Of a stretch of DNA of 64,000 nt, positions 1,097 through 10,672 are shown in pieces. Numbering within the stretch: position 1 is the stretch's first letter; the number at the start of each line of letters is the position of its first letter. Position numbers and translations under genes: made by a program. The notes beneath the pieces were generated by a model. That model worked only from the letters and a program-made list of their open reading frames with translations. It did no database searches and had not been told where the DNA came from. Origin of the DNA: Actinomycetes bacterium (GTDB taxonomy: Bacteria; Actinomycetota; Acidimicrobiia; Acidimicrobiales; Ilumatobacteraceae); contig JAIOPC010000009.1 of assembly GCA_021414085.1 (NCBI GenBank), positions 1 through 64,000 of the forward strand, in the 5' to 3' direction.

Positions 1097-1303
1097 ATGC
1101 CCATGGACACGCAGCCCGACACAGAGTCTGCAACGCTCGATCTCGACGCCATCGAGCGCGACCTTGCCGATGTCGAGGTCGCGCTCACTCGGCTTGATGC
1201 TGGTACCTACTGGACCGACGAGGTCACCGGCGACGAGTTGTCGGCCGACTTGCTCGACGAGCAGCCAACGGCACGTCGCGCCGAAGTTCGCACCGCCGGG
1301 TGA
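1097..1303 (+). CDS. Short DksA/TraR-like protein without zinc-binding cysteines
   Basis: A 68-residue acidic protein starting at ATG 1097 (or ATG 1103). The sequence DLDAIERDLADVEVALTRLD followed by AGTYWTDEVTGDELS and ending DEQPTARRAE follows the layout of DksA/TraR proteins, in which a coiled-coil is followed by a Cys4 zinc module of the form AGTYGxCxxCGxxIxxxRLxAxPxxxxC. All cysteine positions are replaced here, as are most residues of the tip. The stop codon overlaps the GTG start of the ABC1 kinase gene (GTGA), implying translational coupling. A role at the RNA polymerase secondary channel is only inferred from family resemblance. Without zinc it may be a structural relic or a protein with another partner. 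Confidence 0.6.
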   Translation: MPMDTQPDTESATLDLDAIERDLADVEVALTRLDAGTYWTDEVTGDELSADLLDEQPTARRAEVRTAG

Positions 1304-2658
1304 GTCGCCGCCTGCTACGCGTGCGCCGCACGGCTCGCGTGTGGCGACTGATGGCGCGCAACGGCGCGCGGTTTGTTCTCCATCGCGGTCGGCGATCGTT
1401 TTCGCCCCGCGACCAACGCTCGAAGCTCGACGATCGGTTCACGATTCGTACCGCGGAAGATGTTGCACGCGAGCTCGGCAACATGAAGGGCGCGTTAATG
1501 AAGTTCGGGCAACTGCTCGGCTTCATCATGGAAGCACTCCCGGTCGAGGCGCAGCAGGCGCTGGCCGTGCTGCAATCGGATGCGCCGCCGATGGCGCCGG
1601 AAGCTGCTGAGGCCGTCGTGGCTGGCGAACTCGGTTCGCCGGCGCACAAAGTCTTTCTCGATTGGAACCCGATACCCGTCGCGGCGGCAAGTGTTGGCCA
1701 AGTTCATCGGGCAGTCACACGCGATGGCCGCGACGTGGCGGTGAAGGTGCAGTACCCCGGGGTCGGCGACGCAATTGAGGCCGACCTCGACAACACAGAG
1801 GGGCTGTACCGGCTGATGGGCGCTTTCGCGCTGAAGGGGCTGGACACCAAAGGTCTGGTCAACGAACTGCGGGCGCGCATGATCGAGGAGCTCGACTATC
1901 GGTTGGAGGCCGCCAACCAGCGCGAGTTCGCCGACCACTTCGCTCGCCACCCTTTCGTGCGCATCCCCAGCGTCGACTCAGCCACCAGCACCGGACGAGT
2001 GCTCACGACCGAGTGGATCGACGGTTTGTCGTTCACCCAGTTCATGGCGACCGCAACGCCGAAGGCGATGCACCGCGCTGGCGAGTCGATCTGGCGTTTC
2101 ACGCAATACGCCGTCAACGATCTGCGCGCCTTCAACGGCGACCCACACCCCGGGAACTACAGGTTCAGCGCGGACGGCGACGTGACGTTTCTGGACTTCG
2201 GGTTGGTCAAGCGCTGGACATTGGACGAATGGCAGCACCTGCAGCCGAGCCTGGAAGCGATCGTGCTGCATCGCGATCCGGAGCGCCTGCTAGCTGCCAT
2301 GGAAAACGTGGGCTTCTTGAAACCCAATCACGGTCTCGACGCAGAGACGGTTTACGAGTACGTCAGCACGCCGTATACGCCGTACCTCACCGAACGCTTT
2401 CAGTTCACGCGCGACTTCGTAAAAGACGCGATGGCGACCATCATCGACGTCAAAGGTCCGCACGCGCATGTCATCGAACGCTTGAACATGCCATCCAGCT
2501 TCGTCATCCTCGATCGCGTCGGGTGGGGCGTCAGCGCGATACTCGGCAAGTTGCAGGTTGAAGCACCGTGGCGAGCGATGATGCTGGAGTACCTGATCGG
2601 TTCTCCTCCCGCGACGCCAATGGGCGAAGCGGCATTCGCGTGGAAGCAGCGGCGCTAG
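1300..2658 (+). CDS. ABC1/AarF/UbiB family atypical kinase
   Basis: A 452-residue member of the ABC1 (ADCK/UbiB) atypical kinase family, whose members support quinone or lipid metabolism through ATPase activity. Family features are present: the KFGQ motif (residues 68-71), the Ala-rich nucleotide loop AAASVGQVH near 128-136, the invariant Lys in VAVKVQYP near 149, the catalytic GDPHPGNY and the metal-binding LDFG. No transmembrane helices are evident at the C-terminus, unlike E. coli UbiB. It starts at a GTG that overlaps the stop of the DksA-like gene. Its substrate cannot be told from sequence. Confidence 0.9.
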   Translation: MSRRLLRVRRTARVWRLMARNGARFVLHRGRRSFSPRDQRSKLDDRFTIRTAEDVARELGNMKGALMKFGQLLGFIMEALPVEAQQALAVLQSDAPPMAPEAAEAVVAGELGSPAHKVFLDWNPIPVAAASVGQVHRAVTRDGRDVAVKVQYPGVGDAIEADLDNTEGLYRLMGAFALKGLDTKGLVNELRARMIEELDYRLEAANQREFADHFARHPFVRIPSVDSATSTGRVLTTEWIDGLSFTQFMATATPKAMHRAGESIWRFTQYAVNDLRAFNGDPHPGNYRFSADGDVTFLDFGLVKRWTLDEWQHLQPSLEAIVLHRDPERLLAAMENVGFLKPNHGLDAETVYEYVSTPYTPYLTERFQFTRDFVKDAMATIIDVKGPHAHVIERLNMPSSFVILDRVGWGVSAILGKLQVEAPWRAMMLEYLIGSPPATPMGEAAFAWKQRR

Positions 2659-2672
2659 TACCGTACGAGCCC

Positions 2673-3248
2673 ATGAAGTCCAGAGGATTGATCGCAACAG
2701 CCGCATTCATCGTCGTTTCGCTCTCCGGCTTGGGCCGAGCGTCGGCCGCAGATCTCGGGACGTTTACAGTCGGCGACTTGATCTCGATGCCCAAGAGTTG
2801 CGCCGCCACCGATCCGTTGGACCCTCCGAGTGATTTCGCGGACCTTCACATCGTAAGTGGGCACCACCCAGCATGGAGTTTGGGTATCGACCCACAGATC
2901 ACCAGTTTCAGCATCACCGCGAGTACTGCCAGCTACTCATACGACACGACAGCGCAGGGCGTCGGCGACTTCACCGTCATCATCCATTGTTGGAACGGCG
3001 ATCCCCACGACCCGATCAGCCAGGAGTACATCTACACGTTCACCGTTGCTGCCGCGGCGGCTACCACCACCACTTCTACGACCACACCCACGGTTGCCGG
3101 GCCTGGCGCTCCGACCGCAACTACGACCACAGTGCCAACAATTCCCAAGGCTGGCACCTCAAGCACCACAACGCTGGCTCTCCTAGGTGCCGCTCTCACG
3201 CTCACTGGGATGGCATTGCTGCTCGTGCGCCGTCGCGCTGTCGCTTAG
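2673..3248 (+). CDS. Secreted cell-wall-anchored protein with LPXTG-like signal
   Basis: A 191-residue exported protein. It has an N-terminal signal peptide (KSRG then a hydrophobic stretch ending RASAA), an extracellular region of about 110 residues with two Cys that could pair, a Thr/Ala/Pro-rich stalk (about residues 130-160), then IPKAG, a hydrophobic segment and the terminal RRRAVA. This is the architecture of sortase substrates, with IPKAG standing where LPXTG would be. The start ATG 2673 gives the signal peptide; a longer upstream reading frame overlaps the ABC1 gene and is unlikely. The function of the exposed domain is unknown. No sortase gene is in the window. Confidence 0.75.
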   Translation: MKSRGLIATAAFIVVSLSGLGRASAADLGTFTVGDLISMPKSCAATDPLDPPSDFADLHIVSGHHPAWSLGIDPQITSFSITASTASYSYDTTAQGVGDFTVIIHCWNGDPHDPISQEYIYTFTVAAAAATTTTSTTTPTVAGPGAPTATTTTVPTIPKAGTSSTTTLALLGAALTLTGMALLLVRRRAVA

Positions 3249-3298: not shown

Positions 3299-3931
3299 GT
3301 GGCCGACCCTTACAAACCGAGAGCACCGTTCGCACCGTGGGATCGGCGACAGTTGCCGGGCCTCTTCGACGTCGAGGAAAGTGCTCGCCGCGTGGGCAAT
3401 TACAAGTGGGCCGAGATGAAGTTGTTCGAGACGCTTGGCGGCTGGGTCGCCACGGTGCCCGAGCTTGACGTGAAGATGCGCCTCGGCGCCCACTGCTATC
3501 ACCATGCGTGGCACGCCGAGTTGTGGCACAAGCGCCTGCCGGAACTACGCGAAATGAACCCCGAGCGCCTAACGCAACCGGCCAACGAGGCGATGGTGCG
3601 CTTCGTGCAAGTTCTCGCCGAACCGGAAGCCGCCGAGCACACAATCGAGAAGCTGGTCGGCGTGTATCGCGTCTTCATCCCGCACTTCATCGCGGCGTAC
3701 ACGTTCCACCGCAACAACACCAGCGAGATCACTGATGCCCCGACCATCCGCTCGCTGGACTTCGCGCTCCGCGACGAGTTCGAAGATTGGCGAGACGGCG
3801 AAATGATGTTGCAATCGCTGATCGAAACACCCGAAGAAGTCGATCGGGCTGCCGCGCACCAAGCGCGGCTGGAGAAGATAATGCTGGAAGCGGGCGGCAT
3901 TGCCGGCCCGGGAACGATCGGAGGCGTCTGA
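3299..3931 (+). CDS. Ferritin-like helical protein, first gene of a five-gene operon
   Basis: A 210-residue, mostly helical, His/Glu-rich protein that I cannot assign to a named family. Helix 1 carries E39 and E44 (KWAEMKLFE). A second carries H65, H68, H69 and H72 (LGAHCYHHAWHAELW). A later one reads TDAPTIRSLDFALRDEFEDW (146-164), which is the way ferritin-like di-iron proteins present their second helix pair. The final ExxH is altered (E-F-E-D-W), so metal binding is uncertain. It starts at GTG 3299 and its TGA overlaps the ATG of the next gene, itself a clear ferritin-like protein. A paired or heteromeric oxygenase is inferred, not shown. Confidence 0.55.
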   Translation: MADPYKPRAPFAPWDRRQLPGLFDVEESARRVGNYKWAEMKLFETLGGWVATVPELDVKMRLGAHCYHHAWHAELWHKRLPELREMNPERLTQPANEAMVRFVQVLAEPEAAEHTIEKLVGVYRVFIPHFIAAYTFHRNNTSEITDAPTIRSLDFALRDEFEDWRDGEMMLQSLIETPEEVDRAAAHQARLEKIMLEAGGIAGPGTIGGV

Positions 3932-4788
3932 TGCGCAAGTTCTTCCCCGTCGAAGAGTTGGCCCGCGATTCGCGGTTCACCCAGATCAACATGCGCCAGG
4001 CCGAGGCCGACCCGCGCACCGCGATGGTCGGGCCGAACGCGGCGAAGCGGGCGAAGGTCAATCGCCTCACACCGGCGCGACCCGACGCATCGGAGGCCGC
4101 ACGCAACCTGATGCACGGCATCTTCGTCGGCGAGATCCAGGCGCTCGAGGGCGCTGGCCGCACGTGCCACGACTTCGAACTGCCGGATCCGAAGAACGGG
4201 GGTGCGACCGACACCGTGCCGTTTGCGCTGAAGCTCGATATGGCCCGCCAGGCGTGGGACGAATCGCGCCACGTCGAGATCAGTGTCAAGCTCGGCGACT
4301 GGATGGGCTCCGAGATCGGTCAGTTCGCCGAGAACACCGTGCTGTTCGAGGCGGCGTGCAGTACCGACCCGGTGATGCGCCTGGCGGGCGTGAACCGCGC
4401 GCTCGAAGGTCTGGCCATCGACGTATTCACGACGATGAAAGAGTTCGGCGAAATTGCTGGCGACCCTTACCTCGAATTCTGCGAAGACTGGATGCTCGCC
4501 GACGAAGTCACGCACGTGAAGATGGGCAGCGATTGGCTGCGCAAGGTCACCGAGAACGATCCCGAACGTCGCGCCAAGGCGTTGGAGTTCCAGAGCATCG
4601 TCGATCGCCTGTTCTCGTTTGGTGGCGCGCGATCGGAATCCGAAGACTCGCCGATCGGGCTCGCCCGCCGCTTTCGCGAGTTGGCCGGGTTCACCACCGA
4701 CGAGGTCGACGACATCGCCGACGTATCGCTGGCTGCGCTCGAGGCGCGCAAAGCGTTCTCGGCCGCGGCGATGGCCGAAAAGCCATGA
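3931..4788 (+). CDS. Ferritin-like di-iron protein (DUF455-like)
   Basis: A 285-residue protein with the metal-ligand pattern of a four-helix di-iron carboxylate protein: Glu in GEIQALE (E68/E73), E111-S-R-H114, E159 in ALEGLAID and E192-V-T-H195. This resembles the DUF455/MiaE-like branch of the ferritin-like superfamily, whose members are oxygen-activating enzymes or of unknown function. There is no signal peptide. The start ATG overlaps the stop of the preceding gene (TGATG) and its stop overlaps the next start (ATGA), so the five genes from 3299 to 6399 are very likely one translationally coupled operon. The substrate is unknown. The downstream acetyltransferases suggest modification of a small molecule. 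Confidence 0.75.
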   Translation: MRKFFPVEELARDSRFTQINMRQAEADPRTAMVGPNAAKRAKVNRLTPARPDASEAARNLMHGIFVGEIQALEGAGRTCHDFELPDPKNGGATDTVPFALKLDMARQAWDESRHVEISVKLGDWMGSEIGQFAENTVLFEAACSTDPVMRLAGVNRALEGLAIDVFTTMKEFGEIAGDPYLEFCEDWMLADEVTHVKMGSDWLRKVTENDPERRAKALEFQSIVDRLFSFGGARSESEDSPIGLARRFRELAGFTTDEVDDIADVSLAALEARKAFSAAAMAEKP

Positions 4789-5339
4789 CGGTGACTGTCG
4801 AGCCGGAGGAGTTTCGGTTCGTGGCTTTCGATAACGCGCTCATACGCAAGGTCGGCGAATCGTTGGTCACAACGCTCGGCATCGACCGCCCAGTGCATGT
4901 GATCGTCGATGAGTCGACACCACTTGGGCGCATCCGCGCCGAGATTGCCGACACGGTCACGGTGACGGTGGAGAGCGGTTCGTTCGAAGACTCGAAGCGC
5001 CCGCGCCAGCAGAGCGAGATTGCCACCACCATCAACCTTGGGCGCATTCTGTTGCGGGTGAGTGACCGGTTGCATGGCGGTTTCGCCGATGCACCACCCG
5101 ACGACGACCTGAGCCTGGCGCAGATGGCCGCGTGGGAGACCTACTGCGCAGGGCGCCTGTCGCGCCTCGAGCTGCGCATCAATCGACAACGCTGGTTGTA
5201 TAACTTTCGCAATCGGCACGGTTTCAGCGATGCCGCCGACGCTGCATTCGACCAACTGTGGGCAGCGGACAGCCTGACGTGGCCGCAACTGCGTTCGATC
5301 AGTTCGTCTGCGTCTGCGGATTTGGCGGCGGCATCATGA
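4785..5339 (+). CDS. Unknown 184-residue protein of the ferritin-like/GNAT operon
   Basis: I do not recognise this family. The protein begins with a mixed alpha/beta region (about residues 1-80, with DRPVHVIVDESTPLGRIRAE and a short beta-rich TVTVTVESG segment). It continues with a helical half containing a conserved-looking WETYCAGRLSRLELR and QRWLYNFRNRHGF. It is soluble, without signal peptide or transmembrane helices. It overlaps both neighbours by 4 bases, so it is translated with them. Its position between a di-iron protein and two acetyltransferases is the only clue to its role. Confidence 0.6.
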   Translation: MTVTVEPEEFRFVAFDNALIRKVGESLVTTLGIDRPVHVIVDESTPLGRIRAEIADTVTVTVESGSFEDSKRPRQQSEIATTINLGRILLRVSDRLHGGFADAPPDDDLSLAQMAAWETYCAGRLSRLELRINRQRWLYNFRNRHGFSDAADAAFDQLWAADSLTWPQLRSISSSASADLAAAS

Positions 5340-5842
5340 ACGGTGGTTGGCGGCTGGCCGAGGCCAGCGACATACCGTTCGTTTACGAACTGGTCACCAA
5401 GGTCGATCCGCGGTGGTGGCGCTTTAGTCGTGGTGGCCTGGAGCCATCCGTGCTGTTATCGACGGCACAGGGAATCAGCGCCGGAGTCATCGTCGTTGAC
5501 TCTGTCAACAATCCGGTCGCGTGTGCCATTCTCGCTGACGCAGGCACGATGGGTACCGGCATGTTCGAGTACTACGCGCTCCCAAACCCGCAGGCCGAGG
5601 CCCTCGCCCGCCGGTTCGCACCGGAATTGCTGGCCGCCGCATTCGCCGGCGCACCGATCCGACGGCTCTACTACGAGCGCTTCGAGAACGACGCCGAAGT
5701 GTTCGGCGAACTCTCGGCGTACTTTGAGGTCGAGGTGACGTACCCCGAATTCGCCATGATCGACGGGCGCTACGAGAGCCGAACGACTTCGGTGCTGACC
5801 CTTGAGCGCTTCACCGAAAGCCAGCTGGGGGCAGCGCAATGA
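5336..5842 (+). CDS. GNAT-like acetyltransferase (first of two)
   Basis: A 168-residue protein with a GNAT-like outline: an opening WRLAEASDIPFVYELVTKVD typical of GNAT beta-1/alpha-1, a central pair of strands (AGVIVVDSVNNPVACAILAD), and a late RLYYERFENDAEVFGELSAY segment corresponding to the acceptor-side helices. The Q/RxxGxG/A acetyl-CoA loop is not obvious, so it is either a divergent GNAT or has lost cofactor binding. It overlaps the preceding and following genes by 4 bases each. Activity is uncertain; it may act as a non-catalytic partner of the next gene product. Confidence 0.6.
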   Translation: MNGGWRLAEASDIPFVYELVTKVDPRWWRFSRGGLEPSVLLSTAQGISAGVIVVDSVNNPVACAILADAGTMGTGMFEYYALPNPQAEALARRFAPELLAAAFAGAPIRRLYYERFENDAEVFGELSAYFEVEVTYPEFAMIDGRYESRTTSVLTLERFTESQLGAAQ

Positions 5843-6399
5843 TCACGACCTCACGCATCGTGTTCCGGCCGGTGTTGCCCGCCGATTACCCGCGGCTCTA
5901 CGAAATCGAATCCGACCCAACGACCGCAATGACGTGGCGCTACCACGGCAACCTGCCGCCGTTTGCAGAGTACGAGCCCGCGTTGTGGAAGCAGACGCAG
6001 CAGATCATGGTCGTCGAGGGCCGCACGTCCGGCCAGGTCGTCGGCTACCTGCAACTGCACGACGTCGACCCCCGCGCCGGCAGCGGCTGGTTTTCGCTGT
6101 ATTCCGGGCCCGAGCACCGCGGCACGGGGCTGGTCATGGAAGGGCTGATGGCCTACTGCGAGTGGGCGTTCGGCAACTGGCCGCTGCGCTGGCTCTACGC
6201 CCATTCATTCGCGCAGAATGTCACCGAATTCGAGCACGGCATGCGCCGCGGCGAGGCCGTGCGCCTGGGCGTATTGCGCGAGCGGGTGGTGGTGGAGGGC
6301 GAGCCCACCGACGTGCACGTGATCGGTATCTCGCGTGAGAACTGGATGGCCAGCCCACTACGCCGACGATTCAACCTGCTGCGGGCCCGTCAGACCTGA
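5839..6399 (+). CDS. GNAT family N-acetyltransferase (RimJ-like, second of two)
   Basis: A 186-residue GNAT protein. It opens ITTSRIVFRPVLPADYPRLY, has the strand GQVVGYLQLHDVDP, and then SGPEHRGTGLVMEGLMAY, where HRGTGL is the acetyl-CoA pyrophosphate loop (Q/RxxGxG). WLYAHSFAQNVTEFEHGMRRG follows the usual layout of small-molecule and RimJ/RimL-type transferases. It is the last gene of the operon starting at 3299. After it comes a short spacer with a probable promoter for the following secreted protein. The acceptor substrate is unknown. Confidence 0.75.
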   Translation: MITTSRIVFRPVLPADYPRLYEIESDPTTAMTWRYHGNLPPFAEYEPALWKQTQQIMVVEGRTSGQVVGYLQLHDVDPRAGSGWFSLYSGPEHRGTGLVMEGLMAYCEWAFGNWPLRWLYAHSFAQNVTEFEHGMRRGEAVRLGVLRERVVVEGEPTDVHVIGISRENWMASPLRRRFNLLRARQT

Positions 6400-6465: not shown

Positions 6466-7443
6466 ATGCACGGTTCAGAGATTGAATCCTTGAAAGCCGA
6501 CTTGCGACGCATGCAAGCACGCGTCAACGAGTTGGAAACAGCCGGCGAAGAGCCAACCAACCGCCGCAACATGCTGCGTGGCCTCGGTGCCGCCGCCGCC
6601 GGTGCCGCCGTCGGTGGCCTCGCCTTCGCCCGCCCCGCCGCTGCCGACTTCGCGCTCTTGGCGGAAGGCGACAACACGGTGTTGCAGAACACGTCGATTG
6701 TTGCCGGCGCGGCATACTCGCCTGACAGAAACTTCGGACTGTTCCACCTCACCGACGACGTCACGTCAACGCAGTCCAACTCACGCACCACCGCCCTGAC
6801 AATCGCCGCCACAGGCAACGCTGCCTTGGGTGCCGAGGCGATGGTCGTCGGCGCGAAGATTTCAGGCAGCGAAACCGGTATGAAGCTCAATGGCCCAGTG
6901 CCGTTGAAGCTCAACTCCTCGGCTGCCCCGTCGCAATCAAGCGGTACCCAGGGCCAGTTCATCCACAACGGCGGTGATCTGTGGTTCTGTGTTTCGACCA
7001 GCGGTAGCCACCGGTGGCGCAAGCTCACCGGTCCGGCCGGTGCTGGCGGCTACTACGCCGTCACGCCCAAGCGCGTGTACGACTCGCGCGCTGCCTCGCC
7101 GCTGCAGGGCACTTTGGCCACCGGTGCCAACCGGTTGGTGTCTGTTGCCGACGGGCGCAACAACAGTGGTGTTGTCGACATCGCCAACCTGGTGCCGGCC
7201 GGCGCCACCGCCGTCACCGCCAACGTCACTGTCACCGGCACCATCGGCGGCTTTGGCTATCTCGCGATCAACCCTGGCGGCAACACCGTGGAAGGTGCCT
7301 CGACCATTAACTGGTTCGGCGAAGGCCAGTCGATCGCCAACGGCGTGACGCTGACCCTCAACGACAGCCGCCAAGTCACCGTCATCTGCAACGGTGGCGG
7401 CAGCACGCACTTCATCATCGACGTTTCCGGCTATTTCCTCTAA
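6466..7443 (+). CDS. Tat-exported surface protein with repeated beta domain
   Basis: A 325-residue protein. A short coiled-coil (residues 5-30) precedes a twin-arginine signal (NRRNMLRGLG followed by a long Ala-rich hydrophobic core and an ARPAAA cleavage region). The C-terminal ~130 residues begin YYAVTPKRVYDSRA and end HFIIDVSGYFL, with TAVTANVTVTG and GYLAINPGG in between. This domain is common in large secreted proteins of Actinomycetota and has no known activity. A good ribosome-binding site precedes the ATG. The cytoplasmic coiled coil before the Tat signal is unusual in position but seen in other actinobacterial Tat proteins. The role is likely envelope or surface structure (inference). 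Confidence 0.75.
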   Translation: MHGSEIESLKADLRRMQARVNELETAGEEPTNRRNMLRGLGAAAAGAAVGGLAFARPAAADFALLAEGDNTVLQNTSIVAGAAYSPDRNFGLFHLTDDVTSTQSNSRTTALTIAATGNAALGAEAMVVGAKISGSETGMKLNGPVPLKLNSSAAPSQSSGTQGQFIHNGGDLWFCVSTSGSHRWRKLTGPAGAGGYYAVTPKRVYDSRAASPLQGTLATGANRLVSVADGRNNSGVVDIANLVPAGATAVTANVTVTGTIGGFGYLAINPGGNTVEGASTINWFGEGQSIANGVTLTLNDSRQVTVICNGGGSTHFIIDVSGYFL

Positions 7444-9302: not shown

Positions 9303-9680
9303 TTAGCGCAGATCGTGGGCGCTGGCGCCGTCCCAAAGGTCGATGTTGGGTGGCGCAGTCAGCAGCCCGGTGCAACTCTTCGCCATCGCGATCATGCCCG
9401 GACTGTCGAAGTGCGCCCGCTGCGCCTCACCCGAATCCCACTTCTGAATCAGCAGGTACCGACCCGGCAACGTCGCCGACGCGCACAGGTCCACGTTGCG
9501 GCATCCGGGTTCCATGCGAGTCAACACGACGTACTTGGAGAGCACTGCCAGCAACGCTTCGGCATCGGCGGCTTGGAACTGCATGGTGACGATTGTCAGT
9601 TCGATGAGCCAAACGCTAGCTAGTGAATTCGTGCACCAGGGTTGTGGGGCTTGACGCAGTCGGTATCGTGACCAAATCAC
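9303..9680 (-). CDS. Antibiotic-biosynthesis-monooxygenase (ABM) domain protein
   Basis: A small ABM-fold protein, with core [32 protein letters not shown] and [20 protein letters not shown] as in cofactor-free monooxygenases and heme-degrading relatives. Start choice is uncertain. The only ATG in frame (9585) would cut off the first beta strand; the next usable start is GTG 9680, used here, which adds about 20 atypical residues. Neither has a convincing ribosome-binding site. The gene faces away from the sigma factor gene. Substrate unknown. Confidence 0.6.
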
Positions 9681-9736
9681 CCGGGGGCGGCAAGTGCAGC
9701 CCTGGGTATCCGTTCACCTTAACTAGGGAGCAATTC

Positions 9737-10672
9737 GTGGCGAAAGATCGCGTGGAACGGGACGAAGAAGACCTGGTCCGCCTGTATCTGACCGATATTG
9801 GCCAATACACGCTGCTCACCAAGGACGACGAGGTTCGCCTCGCCAAGCAGATCGAAGCCGGCAAGCTCGCCAACGACGAGCTGTCCAGCGCGAAGGGCCT
9901 CACCCCTGCCCGCAAGCGCGAGCTGCGCCGTGCGGCTCGCGAAGGCGAAGACGCCGAGCGTGGCTTCGTGCAGAGCAACTTGCGGTTAGTGGTCTCGATC
10001 GCCAAGAAGTACCAGGCATCGGGTCTGCCGTTGCTCGACCTCATCCAAGAGGGCAACCTCGGCCTGATGCACGCCGTCGAAAAGTTCGACTGGCGCAAGG
10101 GTTTCAAGTTCTCCACCTATGCCACCTGGTGGATCCGCCAGGCCATCACCCGCGGTATCGCGAACACCGGTCGCACCATCCGCCTGCCAGTGCACGCCGG
10201 CGACACGCTCGCCCGTTTGCAGAAGGCGCGCAGCCGACTGGAACTGAAGATGGGTCGCCCAGCAACGCTCAGCGAGCTCGCCAAAGAAGTCGAGATGCCC
10301 GAAGACAAGGTCACTGAGGCTTTGCGCTTCGCGGCCGAGCCGCTGTCGCTCAGCGAGCCGCTGCGTGAGGATGGCGATGCCGAGCTTGGCGACGTCGTCG
10401 AAGATCGTTCGGCCGAGAGCCCGTTCGAGGTTGCCGCGACCGCGTTGCTGCCCGAGGAAATCTCGCGCCTGCTGGCGCCGCTCGATGAACGCGAACGCGA
10501 GATTCTGAAGCTGCGCTTCGGCCTCGATCGCGGCGAGCCGCGCACACTGGAAGAAGTCGGCGAGCACTTCAACCTCACGCGCGAGCGCATCCGCCAGATC
10601 GAGGCACGGGCGATGAGCAAGCTGCGTCATCCGTCCTCCGACACTGGCGCGCGCGACCTTCTTGCCGTGTGA
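9737..10672 (+). CDS. RNA polymerase sigma factor, group 1/2 (RpoD/SigB-like)
   Basis: A 311-residue sigma-70 protein. It has region 1.2 ([17 protein letters not shown]), region 2 with [12 protein letters not shown], the core-binding [21 protein letters not shown] and the -10 recognising [13 protein letters not shown], then region 3, and region 4.2 with the helix-turn-helix [20 protein letters not shown]. The lack of an acidic region 1.1 and the length point to a group 2 (SigB/HrdD-like) factor, although a short primary sigma cannot be excluded. GTG 9737 is chosen because AGGGAG lies 6 bases upstream; a longer frame extends to 9623 but its extra residues do not resemble a sigma factor. The stop overlaps the next gene. 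Confidence 0.9.

Follow-up and report, generated by a model that had tools for sequence, protein, structure and literature searches.

A conserved three-gene unit of Acidimicrobiia encodes a DUF455 protein and its proposed ferritin-like partner

We analyzed a 64,000-nucleotide stretch of DNA (hereafter, the window) from a member of the Ilumatobacteraceae within the class Acidimicrobiia (contig JAIOPC010000009.1 of assembly GCA_021414085.1), with emphasis on five tandem open reading frames (ORFs) of its plus strand, named A to E (Table 1). Each ORF overlaps the next, by 1, 4, 4, and 4 bases, respectively, through TGATG at the A/B junction and ATGA at each of the B/C, C/D, and D/E junctions, as a first-pass annotation made from the sequence had noted. 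All five genes are under purifying selection (ratios of nonsynonymous to synonymous differences [pN/pS] of 0.08 for A, 0.16 for B, 0.26 for C, 0.35 for D, and 0.16 for E, in a comparison with a single related locus, L059; L and G numbers denote loci and genomes), and the gene downstream of E starts at position 6466, preceded by its own Shine-Dalgarno-like sequence. The five overlapping genes form two modules, i.e., an A-B-C unit and a D-E pair. The conclusion drawn previously from the overlaps, that production of all five proteins is necessarily joint, goes too far: the overlaps suggest coupling, yet D and E come and go without B and C.

Table 1. Genes of the five-ORF cluster and neighboring genes in the window
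Feature	Position	Strand	Description
Gene A	3299..3931	+	210 aa, GTG start; ferritin-like partner subunit (proposed); no Pfam family
Gene B	3931..4788	+	285 aa; DUF455 (PF04305) ferritin-like protein; proposed catalytic subunit
Gene C	4785..5339	+	184 aa; conserved accessory protein (proposed), family without Pfam model; model weakly zincin-like, without HExxH
Gene D	5336..5842	+	168 aa; add-on at the genus level; may be a degenerate GNAT-like protein; acetyl-CoA loop motif absent
Gene E	5839..6399	+	186 aa; GNAT acetyltransferase (Acetyltransf_3), RGxG at residue 94
ABC1/UbiB-family atypical kinase	1300..2658	+	neighbor upstream of A, not proven part of the system
Sigma-70 family sigma factor gene	9623..10672	+	neighbor; in relatives, often follows the A locus; not proven part of the system

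One scan of genome contigs with A returned 141 relatives, and the 80 best of these were analyzed further; their record titles are those of Actinomycetota and Acidimicrobiia metagenome-assembled genomes, including Ilumatobacter-, Candidatus Microthrix-, and Ferrithrix-labelled ones. Sixty of these 80 loci carry A-B-C, 13 carry A-C, 4 carry A-B near a contig end, and 3 have neither B nor C (with a contig end at one of the three). Overlaps of 1 or 4 bases recur in 38 of 60 A-B pairs and 22 of 59 B-C pairs. Likewise, among 149 genomes of the class, A (≥50% identity) was found in 25, a strong B (≥46%) in 24, and a strong C in 23, and all 24 strong-B and all 23 strong-C genomes also carry A. More specifically, A and B are shared by 24 genomes, with one having A only and none B only (Fisher p = 8e-27, in a test that ignores shared ancestry), and A and C are shared by 23, with two having A only and none C only. 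In two genomes (G284 and G353), the order is B then A, with no C. A-B-C is a conserved three-gene unit of Acidimicrobiia; the first-pass proposal of a gene set conserved across the class holds for these three genes and fails for the five, as D and E occur apart in relatives.

Turning to D and E, the latter passes the Pfam model Acetyltransf_3 (43.2 bits, cut-off 25.4), its acetyl-CoA loop RGxG is present in 4 of 4 rows, and by these sequence features it is a GNAT acetyltransferase. Window protein D has no Pfam match, GNAT models included. One of six D homologues touches Acetyltransf_1 (E = 0.19), the acetyl-CoA loop motif is absent from the D rows (n = 6; five checked by script, the sixth by eye), and the D and E profiles give a weak collinear match (hhalign E = 0.004, probability 8.4%, 114 columns), so that D may be a degenerate GNAT-like protein. 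Of the two GNATs called previously, E is therefore confirmed and D is not. Among the 80 A loci, D and E were found together at two, although some of the remaining loci end too early to tell. Across 15 genomes of the genus (a set in which A was not searched and the 33% D fragment of G012 was left out of the count), B and C occur in nine (two in pieces), D in six, and both in three, indicating no association (Fisher p = 0.62). In each of the six genus genomes that have D, E lies behind it (no separate search for E was made). D-E follows a short, diverged A-like gene (A') without B or C in G003 and G014 (A' at L154 4775-5221 and L155 4437-4883), and in G007 (L056) it lies directly behind the ABC1 kinase gene, with no A, B, or C between. 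D-E is a separate GNAT cassette that stands behind the A-B-C unit in some members of the genus, as a local add-on.

These data bear directly on the view expressed in the first-pass annotation, in which all five genes would produce and acetylate one small molecule or peptide. The gap-free overlaps across the window genes and the 6/6 pairing of E with D fit that idea, which is nevertheless opposed by the rarity of D-E at A loci, by the independence of D from B-C within the genus, and by the occurrence of D-E without B-C in G003, G007, and G014. Because D-E is distributed independently of B-C, a single pathway of ferritin-like pair and acetyltransferases is not supported; we rejected a five-gene functional unit on these grounds and regard the five-gene pathway as largely refuted and highly improbable.

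B passes the Pfam model PF04305 (DUF455) at 71.5 bits versus a cut-off of 34.3 (residues 3 to 259), and a family search of the genome also finds it. Across 53 aligned rows, there is no variation at E68, E73, E111, H114, E159, E192, or H195, the pairs E111xxH114 and E192xxH195 lying exactly where they had been pointed out previously. The E, ExxH, E, ExxH set of di-iron type is thus complete in B (i.e., E73, E111xxH114, E159, and E192xxH195); from the family pattern, we take it to be the standard ferritin-like di-iron set, and its residues are the presumed iron ligands of a putative di-iron site. Sequence and profile searches of B against solved structures gave no credible relative. Nor did a literature search return any functional study of DUF455 in its listings, in keeping with the earlier remark that the pair matches no described system, as far as the portions of the literature covered allow. 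DUF455 appears in a table of PMC6214176 and is reported to be linkable to a known fold class only via designed sequences (PMC4520260), COG2833 is mentioned once in PMC12090721, and PMC4554924 concerns DUF4559, which is unrelated to DUF455.

Protein A reaches no Pfam family above cut-off, although 8 of 81 A members make a weak contact with DUF892 (best E = 0.0037), and single-sequence and profile searches of A against solved structures gave no credible relative. Its AlphaFold2 model, computed from an 81-row alignment (predicted local distance difference test [pLDDT] 89.5, predicted template-modeling score [pTM] 0.85), has four long helices arranged as a four-helix, ferritin-like bundle, in agreement with the fold anticipated for it. 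The top VIA-align match of the model is 5ux2_B, an aldehyde-deformylating oxygenase (ADO-type protein; Z 18.8, root mean square deviation 2.7, 179 residues, 16% identity), and all 50 listed rows have Z ≥16.7, versus a helical-bundle background of ~13 stated by the aligner. With Foldseek, the first matches at probability 1.00 include CADD, TenA, ADO, and PaaC, the best E value being 4.3e-3 and none lying at 0.001 or below; the list also holds YciF and a Dps-like protein besides enzymes.

Residues E39, E44, H65, H69, H72, E117, R124, H137, D146, R151, and D159 of A are invariant in 81 of 81 rows, which bears out the description of A as a His-rich partner (H65, H69, H72, and H137). At position 163, 75 of the rows have D and 6 have E, and a Gly-rich C-terminal tail, AGG[IV]xGxGxxG, is present in 76. 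The canonical E/ExxH/E/ExxH set was not found in these rows, and no ExxH pair lies at the expected helices. As modeled, A is a ferritin-like bundle with altered ligands. A His/Asp-rich site, comprising E39, H69xxH72, D159/D163, and R124 near the expected helix-3 Glu position, may bind metal, helix placement of these positions being derived from spacing and residue numbering rather than from coordinates. Such an altered site makes a structural or redox role of the metal possible and a second canonical O2-activating site unlikely.

The relationship between A and B is illuminated by proteins of other Actinomycetota. Five genomes (G081, G249, G259, G269, and G439) encode full-length single-chain proteins of 390 to 445 aa in which an A-like N half is followed by a C half of the DUF455 type. 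By hhalign, the fused N halves (5 rows) match A at 98.1% (E = 1.2e-13) and the C halves (7 rows, including a truncated frame from G551 and a Geobacillus DUF455 protein) match B at 99.2% (E = 5.8e-20), versus 2.6% and 0.5% for the crossed comparisons of halves. Likewise, hmmsearch with the A profile recovered the five fused N halves (E values of 9.5e-13 to 2.9e-7) and that with the B profile recovered the seven C halves (4.9e-17 to 3.1e-7), whereas shuffled control sequences gave E values of 1 or worse. Identity of the fused proteins to A and B is about 21 to 36% over the aligned parts. In a 396-genome sample of the phylum, DUF455 is above cut-off in 12 genomes, 11 of which have an A-like partner (six adjacent, five fused); the remaining DUF455 gene, that of G283, is truncated by the end of its contig. 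As A and B match separate halves of single-chain proteins, A plus B is most likely one split two-domain enzyme, to judge from these profile matches, and the notion of two ferritin-like proteins acting as partners gains support from the fold model of A, the DUF455 membership and ligand set of B, and the fused homologues. The fused N halves lack H69 and H72 of A, having N, D, or S at H69 and T at H72 (four aligned cases), and this loss suggests that the partner half there may be structural.

We also considered whether the fused architecture extends further. Extension to a Geobacillus plasmid DUF455 protein was rejected, its N half aligning by eye but giving no significant match (hmmsearch 0.19, hhalign 1.6%). 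A class search around G249 found just the three fused genes already known among 24 genomes, and plasmids gave no match to the fused protein.

C belongs to no Pfam family, and sequence and profile searches against solved structures gave no credible relative. Its model (pLDDT 95.0, pTM 0.89) matches ERAP1 at Z 8.4 and AQ_1354 at Z 7.6; the matched entries are, we assume, zincins (M1 aminopeptidases, YbeY, and minimal zincins), but Z values of 5.9 to 8.4 across the 50 listed rows lie near the aligner's background. Foldseek gave a probability of 0.60 at best in its list and no E value ≤0.001. Unlike zincins, C has no HExxH zinc motif (0 of 71 rows), with D94, R95, F100, W117, and R124 conserved instead. 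Marker proteins described for the class (PMC5962788) could be matched to neither A nor C.

Taken together, the sequence and model data lead us to lean, with somewhat more than even confidence, toward A-B-C being one multi-subunit non-haem iron enzyme, with B as the catalytic, A as the partner, and C as the accessory subunit. B would hold a carboxylate-bridged di-iron site, built from the invariant ligand set described above, that activates O2 for oxidase or oxygenase chemistry; A, the ferritin-like partner, would form a physical complex with B and complete or gate the active site; and C might present the substrate, gate access, or scaffold the complex. A plus B would then be the two-chain version of the two-domain protein made as one chain in some other Actinomycetota. 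Relative to the DUF455 family, B is a member by score with the full di-iron-type ligand set, and in Acidimicrobiia it is usually accompanied by A and C as separate proteins, whereas the five cases elsewhere in the phylum are single chains with an A-like N half.

Comparable arrangements are known, in that PaaC partners PaaA in phenylacetyl-CoA epoxidase and the beta subunit partners the alpha subunit in bacterial multicomponent monooxygenases. By analogy, a catalytic ferritin-like subunit would likewise be joined here by a partner with an altered or lost site, and PaaC, PaaA, and toluene 4-monooxygenase chains are among the structural matches of A. The two systems differ from A-B-C in that there is no sequence match to them, that the five-gene cluster has no reductase or coupling protein by Pfam, and that C presumably has no counterpart in them. 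Aldehyde-deformylating oxygenase provides the best fold match of A. In contrast to that enzyme, A has no paired ExxH; it has HxxH in helix 2, D159/D163 in helix 4, and R124 near the place of the helix-3 Glu.

Several observations argue against a single A-B-C enzyme. The five-gene cluster contains no reductase gene by Pfam (the rest of the genome was outside this search), the A and B profiles show no significant link (hhalign 0.4%), and among the controls the A profile made one crossed match, to the Geobacillus C half (E = 0.003). The zincin likeness of C is near background, as described above, and the Fisher values are uncorrected for shared ancestry. Weak matches stand outside the Fisher counts, i.e., 22 genomes with A below 50% identity, B-like hits of ~30% identity, and a stop-containing C in G226. 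A and C occur without an adjacent B in 13 of 80 loci; B lies elsewhere in 12 of these 13 genomes (in G407, within another A-B-C cluster) and is absent from G410. Of the two A-only loci with room for further genes, one (G417) has B elsewhere and the other (G418) has none, and no A lies beside any detached B copy except that of L222. G173 carries A and a partial C without B. Finally, A' genes (about 26 to 40% identity to A) are found in further Acidimicrobiia genomes without strong B or C, and A-type proteins can therefore exist alone. The lack of a profile link between A and B likewise led us to reject recent paralogy of the two.

Some of these points would also fit A and B being separate ferritin-like proteins of metal handling or stress (storage, detoxification, or peroxide sensing) that are merely co-transcribed, with A' and A acting alone and C unrelated. 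The A' genes lacking strong B or C, the presence of YciF and a Dps-like protein in the Foldseek list of A, and the weak DUF892 contacts of 8 of 81 A members are in line with this explanation. Against it, B has the four Glu and two His of an enzyme-type site in 53 of 53 rows, and the five A-B fusions together with the near-perfect co-occurrence indicate a joint function. We therefore consider separate functions unlikely and retain the multi-subunit enzyme as the preferred reading.

The detached B copies do not constitute one separate subfamily, since they fall into at least two well-supported groups nested among the adjacent Bs in the B tree, and a single origin was rejected accordingly; L222, labelled detached in that tree, sits in an A-B-C cluster. 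Four detached copies (L223, L225, L226, and L229) form a clade, near which lie genes that, judged from their sequences, look like lexA and nrdR. Directly behind nine others (L139, L140, L143, L144, L219, L220, L224, L227, and L228), there is a conserved gene for a small membrane-like protein (~100 to 130 aa). A tandem pair of B genes is found at L224 2293-3962 (G411), and in G173 the broken or partial C behind A (L148 4518-5182) possibly reflects a decaying unit.

Of the site residues of A, E39 is retained in 16 of 21 A' rows, H69 in 15, H72 in 13, D159 in 16, and D163 in 15. A NadE gene of the same orientation precedes A at 30 of 80 loci, at 59 to 4,816 bases, and 36 of 56 loci with room have a sigma factor gene in the 3 kb downstream of A. 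Similarly, 27 compared loci (A' loci, with fused and B-A loci among them) have a NadE-type gene in 14 and a sigma factor gene in 16, with a 4-base overlap between the NadE and A' ORFs of L186. Given this common frame, B and C are variably present at an A/A' site. Near the fused gene, a nucleoside hydrolase gene is found in 4 of the 5 full-length cases (by Pfam for three, by clustering for L156) and a PfkB kinase gene in 3 of the 5 (by Pfam for two, by clustering for L188); at two of these loci (L187 1336-4464 and L156 3169-6395), the PfkB kinase gene overlaps or abuts the fused A-B gene, with the nucleoside hydrolase gene nearby. In G551, an ADP_ribosyl_GH gene lies near the truncated, below-cut-off DUF455 frame.

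Hints as to the substrate are weak and come from these neighbors of the fused form (nucleoside hydrolase and PfkB kinase) and from NadE near A. They would suit a nucleoside- or NAD-derived small molecule on which A-B-C and the fused form act. This proposal is set against the possibility that the NadE link is frozen synteny, given the recurrent sigma factor gene downstream; moreover, the genes upstream of A in the window are those of a small secreted-looking protein and the ABC1 kinase rather than NadE, the fused proteins are just ~21 to 36% identical to A and B, and L212 is without nucleoside genes among the frames read. We judge such a substrate rather improbable. A more elaborate version is more speculative still, namely that A-B-C might be a three-component di-metal oxygenase of a nicotinamide- or nucleoside-derived metabolite, in which A has its own His/Asp metal site and C is a former zincin that presents the substrate, the fused form performing the same chemistry beside a nucleoside hydrolase and a ribokinase.

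As regards the remaining neighbors, a small secreted-looking protein is encoded at window positions 2568-3248 between the ABC1 kinase and A, its LPXTG-anchor score of 19.6 bits being just below the 20-bit cut-off; the spacing between kinase and A is only 47 bases in L059. Behind E, positions 6466-7443 encode a Tat-signal-like protein just below the Pfam cut-off, relatives of which lie behind D-E in L154 and L155 and also in several other related loci. The kinase is reminiscent of COQ8, which together with COQ7 offered a parallel for a link to ubiquinone-type biosynthesis. We dropped this link because an ABC1 gene of the same orientation precedes A at only 20 of 80 loci (14 within 1.5 kb).

A and C represent two families that Pfam does not model and that are conserved in a class of bacteria with few cultivated members. 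Where A-like proteins persist on their own, their genes are often flanked by an NAD synthase gene and a sigma factor gene. For the DUF455 family, A would be a missing partner. Because an A-like half, fused or adjacent, accompanies DUF455 in 11 of its 12 genomes in the phylum sample, biochemistry would best be performed on the A-B pair plus C rather than on DUF455 alone.

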